DNA of 5,681 nucleotides from positions 1-5,681 of the forward strand of contig JAICYE010000170.1 in assembly GCA_025934385.1 (NCBI GenBank), in the 5' to 3' direction. A model generated the notes under the pieces. It did no database searches. It had not been told where the DNA came from and saw only the letters and a list, made by a program, of their open reading frames with translations. This document shows positions 229 to 5,681 of the stretch, piece after piece (within the stretch, counting starts at the first letter, position 1; every line of letters starts with the position of its first letter). The position numbers were made by a program, and so were the translations under genes. This stretch comes from Acidimicrobiia bacterium (lineage in GTDB: Bacteria; Actinomycetota; Acidimicrobiia; IMCC26256; BP-133).

Positions 229-1317
229 GTGGACAGCGAGAGAGACAACCTCGACGCCGTCCTCGACGATGTGGCCGCGCACTACGACGTCGGCCGCTGG
301 TGGGACGTGCAGCCGGTGGCGGGGGGCTTCCGCATCGCCGCCGAGGCAGGGGAGTTCTTCGCCTCGGTGTCGCCGGAGAGCCGCAGCGCCGGGTCGCTCA
401 CGTTCGAGGCCATGCTGCTGGCCCATCTCGAGGACCGGGCCTACCTCGCGCCCCGTCTGGTTCGGACCAGGGCCGGCCGGCCCTGGCATCGGTCGGTGAC
501 CGGGACGGCAGTCCTGGTCAGCGAATGGGTCGGGGGCGGTCCGGTGGATCCCGCCCTCGCCCCGCATCGGCGGCGGGCGGTCCGAGCGCTGGCGGAGTAC
601 CACGCCGCCGTCCGCTCGTTCCCGCCCCGGCTCCGGGTGGAGGGCGGTCCGACGCCGTTCGCCCTGGCCCAGGACGGGCCCGCCGCCCTCGAGGCGTTCA
701 CTGGCATCTCCGGCTGGTACCTCGACGCCGACGGGCGCCGGCGCCTCCGGAGCGCCACTTCGTACCTGTGGCGCCAGTACGCCCGCGTGCCCGAGGTGCT
801 CACCGCCGGCGGGGTCTCCCTTCCCCGCCTCGTGGTCCACGGTGGGCTCGGAGGCGCCGGCATCATCCTCGACGGGGACCGACCGGGTTGGCCGGCCGAC
901 GGGTTGGCGGGCTTCGAGAGCGCCCGCTACGACCTGCGGGCCGTCGACCTGGCCGCCGCCCTGACGACGTTCGCCCGGGAGGCCCACCCCACCGGAACCA
1001 AAGGTTCCGGCGGGGACCCCGGGGCGGGGGGGTTCGACCTCGACCGTTGTGCGGACGTCATGGCCGCCTACGACGAGGTCGACCGCCTGTCGCCGGGTGA
1101 GATCACGGCCTTGCCGGTCATGCTCCGGGTCGAACGGCTGGCCCGGGTCTACCGGCTGGTGGCCGGCTTCGGCGAGCGCTTCGGCGCCGCCACGGGGCTC
1201 GACGGCCTCGTGGACGGGATCGTGGCGGTGGCCGAGGCGGAGGCCGCCCGCGTCCGGTGGTTGGAGGAGCACGAGTCGGCGCTGGTGGAAGCCCTCGGTT
1301 CGGCGCTCGTGGGCTGA
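229..1317 (+). CDS. APH/type II homoserine-kinase-fold protein, probable pseudokinase
   Basis: This is a 362-residue cytoplasmic protein. The GTG start is set by GGAGG at 216-220, eight bases upstream. The fold is that of the aminoglycoside phosphotransferase/ThrB type II/CotS group. There is a hinge-like VLVSEWVGGG at about 95-104, a catalytic-loop region HGGLGGAG at 204-211, a GFE at 228-230, and the family's YDLxxxDLA at 234-242. A C-terminal helical segment around 279-311 (AYDEVDRLSPGEITALP then Arg/Leu-rich helices) resembles the end of type II homoserine kinases. Active members read HGDLxxxN and DF[GED]. Here Asp206 is Gly, Asn211 is Gly and Asp228 is Gly, and the N-lobe strand where the ATP-binding Lys is expected reads EFFASVSP (about 42-49) with no Lys. 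Loss of all four points to a protein without phosphotransfer activity, perhaps a binding or scaffold protein. It is not frameshifted and its codon use matches its neighbours, so it looks maintained rather than decayed. Its substrate or partner is unknown. APH-fold proteins do occur in some RiPP clusters (thioamitides, class V lanthipeptides), but a link to the peptide gene downstream is only inferred. Confidence 0.75.
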   Translation: MDSERDNLDAVLDDVAAHYDVGRWWDVQPVAGGFRIAAEAGEFFASVSPESRSAGSLTFEAMLLAHLEDRAYLAPRLVRTRAGRPWHRSVTGTAVLVSEWVGGGPVDPALAPHRRRAVRALAEYHAAVRSFPPRLRVEGGPTPFALAQDGPAALEAFTGISGWYLDADGRRRLRSATSYLWRQYARVPEVLTAGGVSLPRLVVHGGLGGAGIILDGDRPGWPADGLAGFESARYDLRAVDLAAALTTFAREAHPTGTKGSGGDPGAGGFDLDRCADVMAAYDEVDRLSPGEITALPVMLRVERLARVYRLVAGFGERFGAATGLDGLVDGIVAVAEAEAARVRWLEEHESALVEALGSALVG

Positions 1318-1401: not shown

Positions 1402-1677
1402 ATGCGAATGGTTCCGGCACTTCGCATCACCAACGAGGAGAGACGGGAACTGGAGCGGAGAGCGCAGGGCGAGCACGTGTCGCGCCGGGTGGCGCAACGG
1501 GCCCGCATCGTGCTGCTGGCCGCCGACGGCGTCCCGAACCGGCAGATCGCCCTGCTGGTCGGGCTGAACCAGAACCAGGTCGGCATGTGGCGCAAGCGCT
1601 ACGCCGCCCACGGGATGTCGGGCCTGGCCGACCGGCCGCGCCCGGGCCGGCCGCGCCGCACACCGGTCGCCGCCTGA
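1402..1677 (+). CDS. Solo helix-turn-helix protein, IS630-type transposase N-terminus
   Basis: This is a 91-residue protein. The start ATG follows a GGGGGAAG purine run at 1390-1397. It matches the N-terminal winged/helix-turn-helix region of IS630-family transposases: LRITNEERRELERRAQ (about 7-22), VAQRARIVLLAADGVPNRQIALLVGL (about 30-55, the first helix-turn-helix), NQVGMWRKRYAAHGMSGLADRPRPGRPR (about 58-85). The arm ending in GRPRR is the usual linker to the DDE catalytic domain. The frame stops six residues later, and no DDE domain is recognisable downstream in any frame. Full IS630 transposases are about 340-360 residues. This is therefore either a truncated transposon remnant or a DNA-binding domain kept on its own as a regulator. 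An intact frame, a plausible ribosome binding site and a place directly upstream of a strongly translated peptide gene favour the second view slightly. The domain assignment is firm; the regulatory role is inference. Confidence 0.75.
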   Translation: MRMVPALRITNEERRELERRAQGEHVSRRVAQRARIVLLAADGVPNRQIALLVGLNQNQVGMWRKRYAAHGMSGLADRPRPGRPRRTPVAA

Positions 1678-1730
1678 CCGGGTTGTCGTTGTCAGTTTGT
1701 GAAATTCATCAGCCGAAGGAGGAACAAAAT
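1678..1730 (+). promoter_or_regulatory. AT-richer gap before the peptide gene
   Basis: The 53 bases between the HTH stop and the peptide start are about 45% G+C by count, far below the flanking genes. They contain TTGTCG (1683-1688) and TTGTCA (1689-1694), which resemble -35 hexamers. I see no good -10 hexamer at the right spacing; the best placed is TCATCA at 1706-1711. The low GC suggests a promoter or an unstructured leader that helps translation start. A specific promoter cannot be fixed from the sequence. Confidence 0.3.
1716..1722 (+). promoter_or_regulatory. Strong ribosome binding site of the peptide gene
   Basis: AAGGAGG lies eight bases before the ATG at 1731, in an A-rich unstructured stretch (GGAACAAAAT). 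It is the closest match to the anti-Shine-Dalgarno sequence in the window. It fixes the start of the small peptide gene and predicts high translation, as expected for a precursor peptide made in excess over its enzymes. Confidence 0.85.
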
Positions 1731-1925
1731 ATGTTCGAGCTCACCATCGATACCGACGTCCGTGCGCTGCAGTCAGTGGCCGGCACGGCCGAACTGCACC
1801 GGCGTCGCCGTCACTTCCGGAGCTTCCGCAGCAACACGTGCCTGGTCACGGCCAACGGATCGCTCAACGGCCTCAGCGTCCTGAACATCCTGAACGGGTT
1901 CGGCGGCGGCTGGGGCGGCTGGTAA
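1731..1925 (+). CDS. 64-residue peptide, candidate RiPP precursor with WGGW C-terminus
   Basis: I do not recognise the family. The peptide has a mixed acidic/hydrophobic N-terminal part (MFELTIDTDVRALQSVAG, 1-18), a strongly basic middle (RRRR at 24-27, then HFRSFRS to residue 34), a single Cys37, and a low-complexity C-terminal part. That part carries three Asn-Gly pairs (42-43, 46-47, 55-56) and ends in GFGGGWGGW (56-64), with Trp61 and Trp64 as the only tryptophans. There is no signal peptide or clear membrane helix. A small size, a strong ribosome binding site, a leader-like N-terminus and a Gly/aromatic tail are typical of precursors of ribosomally made, modified peptides. The aromatic tail recalls P450-cross-linked peptides such as the tryptorubin type. 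The ferredoxin and reductase genes directly downstream could power such an oxidation. No P450, radical-SAM enzyme, cyclase, protease or exporter lies in the window, so a RiPP role is inferred. It could also be a cationic antimicrobial peptide or a small regulatory protein. That the gene is real is well supported; its function is open. Confidence 0.7.
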   Translation: MFELTIDTDVRALQSVAGTAELHRRRRHFRSFRSNTCLVTANGSLNGLSVLNILNGFGGGWGGW

Positions 1926-1961
1926 GACGCCAACACCCTCGGGACAACTCCGGCTCAGCCC

Positions 1962-1998
1962 CGGGGTGGGCGCAGCGGTACGGTTGCGGTCCACCCCG
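1962..1998 (+). other. Long hairpin between the peptide and ferredoxin genes
   Basis: CGGGGTGG at 1962-1969 is the exact reverse complement of CCACCCCG at 1991-1998. Inside it, CGCAGC at 1971-1976 pairs with GTTGCG at 1983-1988 with one G-U pair, leaving the six-base loop GGTACG. Together they form about 14 pairs with a small internal bulge. It starts 36 bases after the peptide stop and ends 10 bases before the GGAGG site of the ferredoxin gene. No T tract follows, so it is not a classical intrinsic terminator. A partial terminator, or a stabilising 3' end for a short peptide mRNA, would fit. Confidence 0.6.
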
Positions 1999-2020
1999 AG
2001 GCGAGTCCGGAGGTAATGAC

Positions 2021-2215
2021 ATGAGGGTCGTGGTCGACTTCGACCGGTGCCAGAGCAACGCCGTCTGCATGGACGTGGCCCCGGAGATCTTCGAGGTCCG
2101 GGACGACAACTTCCTTTACATCCTCGACGAGAAGCCCTCCGAGGCGCTGCGCCCGAAGCTCGAGGAGGCGGTGCGCCGCTGCCCCACCCAGGCGATCTCG
2201 ATCGCCGAGGACTGA
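2021..2215 (+). CDS. P450-type ferredoxin, atypical CxxNxxC...CP cluster
   Basis: This is a 64-residue single-cluster ferredoxin of the type that passes electrons to actinobacterial cytochromes P450. The start ATG is seven bases after GGAGG (2009-2013). The core is VDFDRCQSNAVCMDVAPEIFEV (residues 5-26), and the distal RRCPTQAISI is at 52-61. Cluster ligands are Cys10, Cys16 and Cys54 (followed by Pro55). Residue 13, a fourth Cys in [4Fe-4S] proteins, is Asn. Family members with CxxXxxC(n)CP usually carry a [3Fe-4S] cluster, or a [4Fe-4S] cluster with a non-Cys ligand; which one applies here cannot be read from sequence. The length is normal for the family. The reductase gene follows after six bases, so the two are certainly co-transcribed and form one electron chain. 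No P450 is present in the window, so the acceptor is unknown. Confidence 0.92.
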   Translation: MRVVVDFDRCQSNAVCMDVAPEIFEVRDDNFLYILDEKPSEALRPKLEEAVRRCPTQAISIAED

Positions 2216-2221
2216 GGCGCG

Positions 2222-3445
2222 TTGGCGTCCTCCGCCCGGCCGGGGCGAATCGTCGTCGTCGGCGCGTCGCTGGCCGGCCTGTCGGCCGCAGAGACGCTGC
2301 GGCAGGAAGGCTTCGAGGGCGAGCTGATCGCCGTCGGCGCCGAGCCCGTCCTGCCCTACGACCGGCCGCCGCTGTCGAAGCAGGTCCTCCAGGGCCACTG
2401 GGAGCCGGAGAAGACGGCGCTGCGGGACCAGTCGCAGTACGACGCCCTCGGTGTCACCTGGCATCTCGGTCGCCGGGCCACGGCCCTCGACCCCGTCGCC
2501 CGCACGGTGACCCTCGACGACGGCGAGCCCCTCTCCTACGACGGCCTCGTCATCGCCACCGGCGCCACGCCGCGCCGGATGCCGGGCAGCGAAGAACTCG
2601 AGGGCGTGTACGTGCTGCGGACGCTGGAGGAGTGCCTCGCCCTCCGGGGCGAGATCGAGAGCGCGTCGCGGGTCTGCGTCGTCGGCGCGGGCTTCATCGG
2701 CGCTGAGGTGGCGGCCTCGGCCCGTCAGCGCGGCGTCGAGGTGACGGTGCTGGAGGCGCTGCCCGCCCCCCTGGCCCGGGCCTTTCCGGCCGAGATGGGC
2801 GCGGCCTGCGCCGCCCTCCACCTCGACCACGGCGTCGACCTCCGCTGCGGCGTGACCGTGGCCGGCTTCGAAGGCGACGGGCGGGTGTCGGGCGTTCGCC
2901 TCGGCGACGGAACAGTCATCGAGGCCGACGTGGTCGTCGTCGGTATCGGCGTCGCCCCCGAGACCGGATGGCTGGAGTCGTCGGGCCTGGCGCTCGACAA
3001 CGGCGTCGTCTGCGACTCCACCTGCGCCACCGGCGCCCCCGGCGTCGTGGCCGCCGGGGACATTGCCCGCTGGCCCAACAACCTCTTCGGCGAAACGATG
3101 CGGGTCGAGCACTGGAGCAACGCCGTGGAACAGGGAGCGGCTGCGGCCAAGCGGCTCCTGGCCGGGCCCGGCGAGGCGGTCGACTTCTCACCGGTGCCGT
3201 ACTTCTGGTCCGACCAGTACGACGCCAAGATCCAGTTCCTCGGGCGCTGCTGCCCGACCGACGAGGTCCGCATCGTCAACGGGTCGGTCGACGAACGGCG
3301 CTTCGTAGGCCTCTTCGGCCGCGACGGCCGGCTCGTCGGGGCCCTGGCCTTCAGCCGGCCCCGGCTGCTCATGGCCTACCGCCGGCTGCTGGCCGCCAAG
3401 ACCAGCTTCGAGGACGCCCTCGCCCACGCCGCCCAGGTGAACTAG
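2222..3445 (+). CDS. FAD-dependent NADH:ferredoxin reductase
   Basis: This is a 407-residue flavoprotein of the rubredoxin/putidaredoxin/terpredoxin reductase family. It takes electrons from NAD(P)H and gives them to the ferredoxin encoded just upstream. Domains in order: the FAD dinucleotide fold RIVVVGASLAGLSAAE (9-24), the conserved YDRPPLSK (46-53), IATGATPR (111-118), the NAD-binding fold VCVVGAGFIGAEVA (151-164) whose second strand ends in VLEA (Glu178, favouring NADH over NADPH), the second FAD motif AAGDIARW (277-284), EHWSNAVEQG (296-305), and the C-terminal reductase domain beginning PYFWSDQYDAKIQFLG (326-341). The length is that of complete members. The start is a TTG at 2222, six bases past the ferredoxin stop, with TGAGG at 2213-2217 as a weak ribosome binding site overlapping that stop. 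This suggests translation coupled to the ferredoxin. The likely final partner is a P450 or another oxygenase encoded elsewhere. Confidence 0.93.
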   Translation: MASSARPGRIVVVGASLAGLSAAETLRQEGFEGELIAVGAEPVLPYDRPPLSKQVLQGHWEPEKTALRDQSQYDALGVTWHLGRRATALDPVARTVTLDDGEPLSYDGLVIATGATPRRMPGSEELEGVYVLRTLEECLALRGEIESASRVCVVGAGFIGAEVAASARQRGVEVTVLEALPAPLARAFPAEMGAACAALHLDHGVDLRCGVTVAGFEGDGRVSGVRLGDGTVIEADVVVVGIGVAPETGWLESSGLALDNGVVCDSTCATGAPGVVAAGDIARWPNNLFGETMRVEHWSNAVEQGAAAAKRLLAGPGEAVDFSPVPYFWSDQYDAKIQFLGRCCPTDEVRIVNGSVDERRFVGLFGRDGRLVGALAFSRPRLLMAYRRLLAAKTSFEDALAHAAQVN

Positions 3446-3463: not shown

Positions 3464-4267
3464 ATGGCGGGCGGCGGAGGCGACGGCGGCGACAGGGCGA
3501 TGGCCCACTTCGCCGATCTCGTCGCCCGCCCCGACGACGAGATCCCCCTCGACGAGACGGCTCTCCTCATCGCCTACCACGCCCGGCCCGAGCTCGACCT
3601 GGGCGCCGAGCTGGCCCGGCTCGACGACCTGGCCGCCAGCTGCAATCCGCCGACGTTCGACGGGCTCGTCCGGCACCTCTTCGGCGACCTCGGCTTCCAC
3701 GGCAACGCGGACCACTACCGGGAACCCGACAACTCCTACCTCGACCAGGTGCTCCGCCGGCGGGTCGGGATTCCGATCTCGTTGTCGGTGCTGACGATGG
3801 AGGTCGGCCGGCGCCTCGGCGTGCCCCTCGACGGCGTCGGCATGCCCGGGCACTTCCTCGTCCGCCACCGGGGCGACCCGGCGACGTTCCTCGATCCCTT
3901 CGGCGGCGGCCGCCGGCTCGACGCCGCCGGCTGCCGGGAGATCTTCACCGCCCTCGGGGGGGCGGACTGGAGCGACGACTACCTCGCCCCGGTCGGGGTC
4001 CGGTCGATCCTCACCCGGATGCTCCTCAACCTCCAGGGCCTGTTCCTGCCGTCCGATCTCAGGTCGGCGGCCTGGGTGCTGCAGCTCCGCCTGGCGATCC
4101 CGGGCGTGGCGGTGCCCGACCGGCTCGGCCTGGCCCGGGCGCTGGGGACGCTGGGCCGGTTCGGGGCGGCGGCGGCCGAGCTCGACCGGGTGGCCGACGA
4201 GCTGCCCGACGCCGAGGCCGACACGATCCGGGCGGAGTCCCGATCCCTGCGCGCCCGGTCGAACTAG
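3464..4267 (+). CDS. SirB1-family protein, transglutaminase-like fold plus TPR-like tail
   Basis: This is a 267-residue cytoplasmic protein of the SirB1/transglutaminase-like core-2 family; its biochemical role is not established. Signature segments are FDGLVRHLFGDLGFHGN (65-81), DNSYLDQVLRRRVGIPISLSVL (89-110), GVGMPGHFLVRH (124-135) and FLDPFGGGR (142-150). His130 and Asp144 sit where transglutaminase catalytic His and Asp lie. The Cys position falls in the GIPISLS stretch (about 102-108), which has no Cys; from memory, many SirB1 homologues share that trait, so the enzyme activity is doubtful. Residues about 182-262 form helical TPR-like repeats. The start at 3464 has GAGG at 3457-3460, rather close to it. 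A second ATG at 3500 gives a 255-residue form beginning MAHFADLVARP, which fits the family N-terminus better because residues 1-12 are Gly/Asp filler. The true start may be 3500. It lies 18 bases after the reductase and is probably co-transcribed, but no functional link is evident. Confidence 0.88.
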   Translation: MAGGGGDGGDRAMAHFADLVARPDDEIPLDETALLIAYHARPELDLGAELARLDDLAASCNPPTFDGLVRHLFGDLGFHGNADHYREPDNSYLDQVLRRRVGIPISLSVLTMEVGRRLGVPLDGVGMPGHFLVRHRGDPATFLDPFGGGRRLDAAGCREIFTALGGADWSDDYLAPVGVRSILTRMLLNLQGLFLPSDLRSAAWVLQLRLAIPGVAVPDRLGLARALGTLGRFGAAAAELDRVADELPDAEADTIRAESRSLRARSN

Positions 4268-4451: not shown

Positions 4452-5681
4452 GTGTCCTTGCCGCGCGCCGCCCTCGGAGGCCGGCTCCCCGCGTGTCTCC
4501 TCGTCTTCGCAGTCGCCATCGCTGGCGTCGCCGTTCACGGAGCGGCCGGCGTGCCCGACGTCGGCACGGTCCTGGCCGTGGCCGGTTCGGGCCCCGCCGG
4601 GTATTCGGGTGACGGCGGGCCGGCGGTCGATGCTCGGCTGTATCAGCCCCGCATGATGGCCTTCGACGGTGCCGGCAACATGTACATCACCGACACGTTC
4701 AATCAGGTGATCCGGGTGGTCGACACGACCGGCACGATCTCGACGGTGGCCGGGGTGGCGAAACCGGTGGCCGCCGGGAGCGGAGACCAGTGTCCCCGCC
4801 GCTTCTCCGGCGACGGCGGCCCGGCGCTCGACGCCGAGCTGGCCTGCCCCCACAGCCTGGCGGTGTCCCCGGGCGGGCGCCTCGCCATCGCCGACGCCGC
4901 CAACGACCGGATCCGGGAAGTCGAGCCCGACGGGACGATCCGGACGATCGCCGGCACCGGAGCCACCGGCTTCAGCGGTGACAACGGCCCGGCCACGCAG
5001 GCGAAGCTGAACGATCCGAAGGGCATCATCTTCGACCAGGCCGGGAACCTCTACATCGCCGACACCTCCAACGACCGGATCCGCAAGGTCGACACCGATG
5101 GCATCATCACCACCGTCGTCGGGACGGGCGTCCAGGGCGGGGACGGCGACGGCGGCCCGGCGCTCGGGGCCCAGCGGTCCGAACCCCGGACCCTGGCCTG
5201 GGGGCCCGGCGGGGAGCTCTACATCACCGAGCCGAAGATCCACCGCATCCGCAAGGTCGACGCCGAGGGGATCATCACCCGCCTGGCCGGGACGTCGGTG
5301 GCGGGCTTCAGCGGCGACGGCGGCCCGGCCGTCGACGCCCAGCTCGACACGCCCCGGGGCATCGACGTCGACGCCGACGGCGTCGTCTACATCGCCGACA
5401 GCGGGAACCAGCGCGTCCGCCGCATCGGCACCGACGGGATCATCACCACGATCGCCGGGACGGGCCGGCAGGCCTCCGACGGCGACGGAGGGCCGGCCGC
5501 CCAGGCCGACTTCGCCGGCCCCCGGGCCGTGGCCGTGCTCGGACACGACCTCTACGTGGCCGACACCTACGGCAACCGGATCCGGGTCATCAAAGGCATC
5601 ACAGCCGGGCCCGCCGTCAGCGCCGGCGGCGTGACCACGGTGGTCACGACCTCCAGCACGACGAGCTCGTCGACGTCGACC
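4452..5681 (+). CDS. Secreted NHL-repeat beta-propeller protein, C-terminus beyond window
   Basis: This frame is open for 410 codons to the last base, so the gene is cut by the window edge. The GTG start is seven bases after AGAAGGG (4438-4444). Residues 1 to about 32 form a signal peptide: MSLPRAALGGR, then a hydrophobic stretch LPACLLVFAVAIAGVAV, then a small-residue cleavage region near HGAAG. There is no lipobox. Six repeats of about 56 residues follow (about 51-383). Most begin with [FY]SGDGGPA or a variant, continue with P-x-G-hydrophobic and G-N-hydrophobic-Y-I-A-D, then N-x-R-I-R-x-V, and end in G-x-I-x-T-[IV]-A-G-T-G. These are NHL repeats, which predict one complete six-bladed propeller outside the cell. 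Cys114 and Cys132 could form a disulfide. The visible end (about 394-410) is Thr/Ser-rich (TTVVTTSSTTSSSTST), a typical linker to a further domain or wall/membrane anchor. NHL propellers bind proteins or glycans, and a few are enzymes. No catalytic residues can be assigned here. Confidence 0.88.
   Translation, partial: MSLPRAALGGRLPACLLVFAVAIAGVAVHGAAGVPDVGTVLAVAGSGPAGYSGDGGPAVDARLYQPRMMAFDGAGNMYITDTFNQVIRVVDTTGTISTVAGVAKPVAAGSGDQCPRRFSGDGGPALDAELACPHSLAVSPGGRLAIADAANDRIREVEPDGTIRTIAGTGATGFSGDNGPATQAKLNDPKGIIFDQAGNLYIADTSNDRIRKVDTDGIITTVVGTGVQGGDGDGGPALGAQRSEPRTLAWGPGGELYITEPKIHRIRKVDAEGIITRLAGTSVAGFSGDGGPAVDAQLDTPRGIDVDADGVVYIADSGNQRVRRIGTDGIITTIAGTGRQASDGDGGPAAQADFAGPRAVAVLGHDLYVADTYGNRIRVIKGITAGPAVSAGGVTTVVTTSSTTSSSTST

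Follow-up and report, generated by a model that had tools for sequence, protein, structure and literature searches.

Class IV lanthipeptides form, to our knowledge, a little-studied class. Elsewhere among lanthipeptides, some prochlorosin precursors are encoded distant from their synthetase, ProcM. Venezuelin is encoded by a cluster comprising VenL, VenA and an ABC pair, with no protease gene, and its rings (Cys34-Dhb39 and Cys45-Dha49, each with the Cys N-terminal of the dehydro residue) were proposed from mass spectra (PMC2843593). A census of class IV lanthipeptides covers 815 clusters and 401 precursors, 83% of the latter being the sole precursor in their cluster, and it states that no secondary modification had been reported for the class (PMC7268733). 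Intracellular anti-phage lanthipeptides have been reported in Streptomyces, according to a review (PMC12360287).

Here we analyse a stretch of 5,681 nucleotides (the window) encoding a 64-residue peptide that an earlier note had put forward as a candidate RiPP precursor. The features of its sequence and of its relatives indicate that it very probably is one, and we consider it likely that the gene encodes a class IV lanthipeptide precursor (LanA) situated away from its synthetase, no LanL being found in the 5.7-kb window. The family to which it belongs has hundreds of metagenome members, no family model was found for it, and its likely modifying enzyme is now identified.

Organization of the window

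The following features are referred to below:

229..1317, plus strand: APH-family phosphotransferase-like gene, syntenic in sister genomes
1402..1677, plus strand: gene for a free-standing 91-residue HTH protein, like the N-terminal DNA-binding part of IS630 transposases
1716..1722, plus strand: Shine-Dalgarno sequence AAGGAGG of the putative precursor gene
1731..1925, plus strand: putative solo lanthipeptide precursor gene, 64 residues plus stop
1731..1802, plus strand: putative leader, residues 1-24, with conserved E3, L4, L13, Q14, S15, L22 and R24
1803..1838, plus strand: linker, residues 25-36, basic and variable in length
1839..1922, plus strand: putative core from Cys37, with Cys37, Thr40, Ser44, Asn46, Asn52 and Asn55; it contains a triplet register (residues 45-59) and a variable Gly/Trp tail (59-64)
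1948..2012, plus strand: long hairpin between the precursor stop and the ferredoxin start, arms 1948-1966 and 1994-2012
2021..2215, plus strand: Fer4_13-type small ferredoxin gene
2222..3445, plus strand: FAD ferredoxin reductase gene (Pyr_redox_2 and Reductase_C)
3464..4267, plus strand: Transglut_core2 (SirB1-like) gene, syntenic in sister genomes

The small frame is intact, as had been noted: its translation (MFEL...GFGGGWGGW) runs to 64 residues and closes with a stop codon at 1923-1925, and its GC content is 66% overall and 88% at third codon positions. The ribosome binding site, described earlier as the best in the window, is the joint-best exact anti-Shine-Dalgarno match preceding any start codon; of the 307 start codons counted over the two strands, 2 have an exact 7-base match before them, and the second of these is on the minus strand. 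The AT-richer stretch before the frame was also recovered, the 53 bases at 1678-1730 having 45% GC against 72.5% for the window. Equally borne out were the basic mid-section, which corresponds to the linker between leader and core (the leader would end after residue 24), the restriction of Trp to residues 61 and 64, and the redox pair downstream, a small 4Fe-4S/3Fe-4S-type ferredoxin followed by the FAD ferredoxin reductase. AlphaFold did not fold the unmodified peptide with confidence (mean pLDDT 54). Rfam and tRNA searches of the window returned no structured RNA and no tRNA, and a search for plasmid carriage gave no match. Beyond the conserved block, positions 4452-5681 encode an NHL-repeat propeller protein with no tblastn match in the sister loci.

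A peptide family with a conserved leader and core

Among 5.8 billion proteins the peptide has 54 sequence relatives at E ≤ 10, the weakest of them at 3.3e-7, and it is therefore well beyond a chance reading frame. A profile built from 30 sequences found 552 members at E ≤ 10 among 7977 candidates scored, the best 120 of the 552 extending to 2.7e-28. All organism-named sources among the listed relatives are MAGs of Actinobacteria/Actinomycetota or Acidimicrobiia. The precursor has no match in Pfam at 0.001 and none above cut-off in NCBIfam, and four core strings of the family were not found in the literature searched.

The alignment comprises 148 distinct sequences (140 peptide ids, including that of the window, and eight read from loci) and represents the best-scoring part of the family, to which the best 120 of the 552 profile matches contributed, so that weaker members may depart from the pattern described here. 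Cys37, Asn46, Asn52 and Asn55 are invariant (148/148), while Thr40 is replaced by Ser in one sequence (Thr in 147) and Ser44 by Thr in two (Ser in 146). Such exclusive exchange between Ser and Thr at both positions is what dehydration would require, and a conserved Cys together with Ser/Thr in the C-terminal core, the pattern expected of a class IV precursor, is present in all 148. Residues 45-59 (window 1863-1907) follow a five-fold triplet register with hydrophobic residues at 45, 48, 51, 54 and 57, Asn or small residues at 46, 49, 52, 55 and 58, and Gly or Ile at 47, 50, 53, 56 and 59; beyond Cys37, 143 of the 148 peptides have no Asp, Glu, Lys or Arg.

The conserved part of the family is the leader and core, not the Gly/Trp tail, which the earlier note had taken as the hallmark of the peptide. 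Phe57 is conserved in 146/148, and after it comes nothing, G, GGF, GGGW or GGGWGGW; 85/148 sequences end in GFGGF, Trp is present in 37/148, and 111/148 have no Trp in the tail. As judged from the aligned sequences, the tail is the least conserved part of the core, and a comparison of the tail with the N-terminus, which had been proposed as a check, found the leader kept and the tail variable. Residue 41 and the tail divide the 140 peptide ids into a Leu41 subtype (86, of which 81 have a GGF/GGL-like end) and an Ala/Gly41 subtype (54, with a terminal Trp or a short tail in 49), a rule broken by 10/140. The four located copies in LanL clusters all belong to the Leu41 subtype and the four solo copies, the window's among them, to the Ala/Gly41 subtype; the leader is common to both.

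Homologues in LanL clusters

A pattern scan of one genome per species (84,980 species) found five loci. At L001 (MAG CF_bin.45) and L004 (MAG BP_133) a LanL gene is followed by an S9 peptidase gene and then by two tandem precursors. The two synthetases score 825 (L001) and 830 bits (L004) with the class IV lanthionine synthetase model NF038150 (cut-off 650) and carry RamC_N, Pkinase and LANC_like domains, that is, the lyase-kinase-LanC architecture. Assignment to the class III (LanKC) synthetases was rejected, the scores of 434 and 426 bits for L001 and L004 falling below the cut-off of 575. Both LanL proteins contain, as read by eye, the cyclase Cys and Cys-His motifs WCNG and QCHG, whose residues we take to be the zinc ligands of the cyclase; for L001 only, these motifs also line up with the cyclase region of chain 8car_A. 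An ABC transporter gene lies downstream in L001, and the next gene, which is cut by the contig end, has no family match. By eye, the tandem precursors (L001:7843-8345 and L004:5322-5820) are separated by a palindromic stretch, and the second is followed by a T-run hairpin, which suggests that the LanL operon ends there.

Whole-genome searches located three precursors in G001, one in G002 and three in G003. Each of the three sister genomes has one LanL above cut-off (840 bits in G002), on a contig different from that of the solo copy. The G002 LanL contig comprises 5,078 bases and ends 2.0 kb past the LanL match, a distance similar to the peptidase gene in L004, so that cluster precursors there would fall off the contig end. 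The earlier note was right that the window holds no modifying enzyme, yet homologues of the peptide adjoin genes for a LanL, a peptidase and an ABC transporter, which are the partners that the suggested search for nearby enzymes recovered; a P450 was not among them. The RiPP claim thus stands as to a precursor role, which is very probable, but the kind of RiPP indicated is a lanthipeptide and not a P450 cross-linked peptide. The link to LanL is drawn from three genomes, all belonging to a single family and together making up every genome of it that the analysis covered.

Conservation and distribution of the solo loci

The other solo loci are L005 (in the genome of L001), L003 (in the genome of L004) and L002 (MAG BP_132). 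The gene order APH-HTH-peptide-ferredoxin-reductase-transglutaminase is kept in 3/3 sister genomes, the APH gene being truncated at the locus edge in L002 and the transglutaminase gene at the contig end in L005; the sister genomes form one clade, so the synteny does not amount to four independent events. Ferredoxin and reductase genes lie 3' of the solo gene in 4/4 solo loci, the ferredoxins being 92-98% identical to that of the window. For comparison we took 20 reductase neighbourhoods in further genomes of the order, chosen from 46 with a reductase match (mostly the best-scoring) and covering about 5 kb per side where the contig allowed, four being shorter. The reductase was recovered in 20/20 and an adjoining ferredoxin in 5/20, and the HTH, peptide, APH and transglutaminase genes were found in 0/20 (tblastn, 1e-4).

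Across the order, a LanL above cut-off occurs in 3/58 genomes and the HTH protein (E ≤ 1e-15) in the same three; the peptide, searched for in 395 genomes sampled from the class, turned up in the same three, no listed genome having had more than 16 candidates scored. In metagenomes, 9 of 100 HTH matches share exact contig size and source with one of 139 peptide matches (20 of 120 listed HTH matches had no contig size and were dropped). Control sets with jittered sizes gave a mean of 2.0 and a maximum of 8, and 0/1000 reached 9; several of the nine are probably coincidental (short contigs, LanL-type peptides), so they lend weak support to HTH-peptide co-location.

In the solo loci the HTH protein has 95-96% identity to that of the window (dN about 0.03, dS about 0.3), and the peptide evolves faster (dN 0.27-0.31 and dS 0.41-0.45, window against relatives). 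No catalytic domain was matched in its 91 residues, and a fold search gave 224 matches at E ≤ 10 with none at E ≤ 0.001. The match to the IS630 N-terminal part and the lack of a catalytic domain match point most naturally to a DNA-binding protein that has probably been domesticated. Encoded next to the peptide, it would likely be a dedicated regulator of the solo gene.

Between the precursor and ferredoxin genes, the 3' arm of the hairpin covers most of the ferredoxin Shine-Dalgarno sequence (GGAGGT, 2009-2014). Its folding energy is 3.7 to 8.6 SD below that of dinucleotide shuffles in 4/4 solo loci, compared with -1.5 to +0.4 SD for the same stretch in five other ferredoxin-reductase loci. 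Some of these five are likewise predicted to fold with the ribosome site paired, indicating that it is hairpin strength and not pairing as such that distinguishes the solo loci. All four sequences keep 17 pairs, of which 16 never vary; the arms hardly change, and the covariation count therefore speaks neither for nor against the structure.

Proposed maturation and alternative explanations

The explanation that we prefer builds on the family, its conservation, the LanL linkage of homologues and the synteny, and from these we infer modification in trans, ring formation, processing and regulation. Recognition of the conserved leader would fall to a LanL encoded at another place in the genome, which would phosphorylate and eliminate Thr40 and Ser44, together with linker Ser/Thr where present. 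Addition of Cys37 to one of the dehydro residues would close a small (methyl)lanthionine ring from the N-terminal side, after which the leader and the basic linker would be cleaved off by a peptidase, for which the S9 enzyme encoded behind LanL is a possible candidate. What is left would be a single thioether ring and, after it, a hydrophobic tail that is uncharged and patterned with Asn. In 7/148 peptides the linker (Arg24 to Cys37) has no Ser/Thr, so a ring in these seven would have to use position 40 or 44, with the Cys N-terminal, the orientation also proposed for the venezuelin rings (PMC2843593). A point against the class IV reading is that 130/148 peptides contain a single Cys, as opposed to four in the VenA core, and because residue 41 and the tail set the solo subtype apart from the cluster subtype, the solo copies may have another fate.

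The solo copies might be paralogues that serve in regulation or as decoys, in which case their peptide would not yield a secreted product and would instead act on LanL or the HTH protein as a feedback signal or substrate competitor. This would suit the separate subtype of the solo peptides (Ala/Gly41 with a Trp or short tail in 49/54, against Leu41 with a GGF/GGL-like end in 81/86) and the placement of the four solo copies in a conserved HTH block in which no exporter or leader peptidase was recognized, but the solo copies keep all of the ring residues, so modification still seems to be selected, and we regard the paralogue explanation as unlikely. An ordinary small folded or membrane-active protein lying beside LanL by chance would account for the low Cys count, but the tandem copies behind LanL in two genomes, the confinement of exchanges at positions 40 and 44 to Thr and Ser, and the lack of a predicted fold make it highly improbable.

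The earlier note had looked to cross-linking of an aromatic C-terminus by a P450. We rejected a P450 cross-linked peptide as the main reading: Trp occurs in only 37/148 peptides, no P450 is encoded on the precursor or LanL contigs, the ferredoxin-reductase pair is also found without the peptide, and LanL appears to be the partner enzyme. More broadly, the ferredoxin and reductase might supply an oxidase acting on the core, by cross-linking or hydroxylation at the aromatic tail or the Asn residues, with or without a lanthionine, which we judge to be quite unlikely. The presence of both redox genes at 4/4 solo loci fits this idea, as do the three invariant Asn, for which ring formation has no obvious need, and the 13, 21 and 19 P450 matches in the three genomes. 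However, none of these 53 matches falls on the six precursor/LanL contigs, which are 5-25 kb long so that a P450 could lie further away, and none was found among the seven window proteins scanned. There is likewise no ferredoxin-reductase pair among the frames beside the LanL-cluster copies, where L004 ends right after the second precursor and the frames upstream of LanL in L001 fall outside the family-model scan. With the pair occurring without the peptide in 5/20 other neighbourhoods and a strong hairpin over the ferredoxin ribosome site separating the genes, a role of ferredoxin and reductase in maturation is no more than possible.

A phage-borne homologue

A viral contig of 151 kb (L013) encodes a 61-residue homologue at 10001-10186, found at the same place in three scans. 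Its neighbours match baseplate wedge, virion structural and minor tail proteins and helicases, the two frames flanking it have no Pfam match, and elsewhere on the contig are a tail sheath, a major head protein and a head maturation protease, indicative of a contractile-tailed phage; the model phrog_2, which we take to be the terminase, gave no match on this record. No LanL was found on the phage record, no relatives of the L004 LanL were found in viral contigs, and the peptide had no match among deposited phages. It keeps the leader, the Cys, the Thr, the Ser and all three Asn, and its Leu column is altered, L45, L51 and L54 being replaced by Gly, Trp and Gly, respectively. Identity is 58-68% to the four LanL-cluster copies and, in a different alignment, 57% to the window peptide.

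The phage copy, known from one contig only, is possibly a decoy, a hijack or simple cargo, and raises the possibility that such peptides play a part in the interplay of these bacteria with their viruses. A more far-reaching proposal is that the family constitutes an anti-phage lanthipeptide system, intracellular or released, in which one LanL serves several precursors and the solo copy is a separately regulated arm; the phage would then carry a synthetase-less mimic that occupies the host LanL or yields a dead-end product, a counter-defence by substrate decoy. We consider this whole scenario rather unlikely. A phage-borne precursor with no synthetase ties lanthipeptides to phage conflict in a concrete way that can be tested. 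Literature searches combining 'class IV lanthipeptide' with phage and Actinomycetota found nothing, and those for phage-borne or distant lanthipeptide precursors gave no listed title on this family, with PMC12360287, PMC11118758 and PMC12715929 among the papers returned.

Comparison with known systems

P450-modified peptides of the tryptorubin/biarylitide type have an aromatic C-terminus, and some tails of the present family resemble it; the family differs in that its aromatic tail is variable, no P450 partner was found and a LanL is present instead. Class III (LanKC) systems share the lyase-kinase-cyclase order of the enzyme, and the LQS motif in the leader presumably also resembles class III leaders, but the synthetases here fall under the class III cut-off and have zinc-ligand motifs. 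Prochlorosins differ in having a class II enzyme, Nif11-type leaders and hypervariable cores. What they have in common with the present family is that one synthetase serves several precursors, as described for ProcM (PMC10783134). The likeness to venezuelin (VenA/VenL/VenTH) consists in a LanL with lyase, kinase and zinc-type cyclase and a small precursor nearby, and, in L001 only, an ABC transporter gene downstream, which stands there as a single ABC gene, the next gene being cut (PMC2843593 for venezuelin). In contrast to the four Cys of the VenA core described there (PMC2843593), the present peptides have one conserved Cys. An S9 peptidase gene follows LanL, two precursors stand in tandem, an extra solo precursor is encoded elsewhere, and the core is an Asn-patterned series of triplets; the family would bring to the class IV lanthipeptides a scaffold with a single Cys and an Asn pattern, and the layout of a solo precursor.
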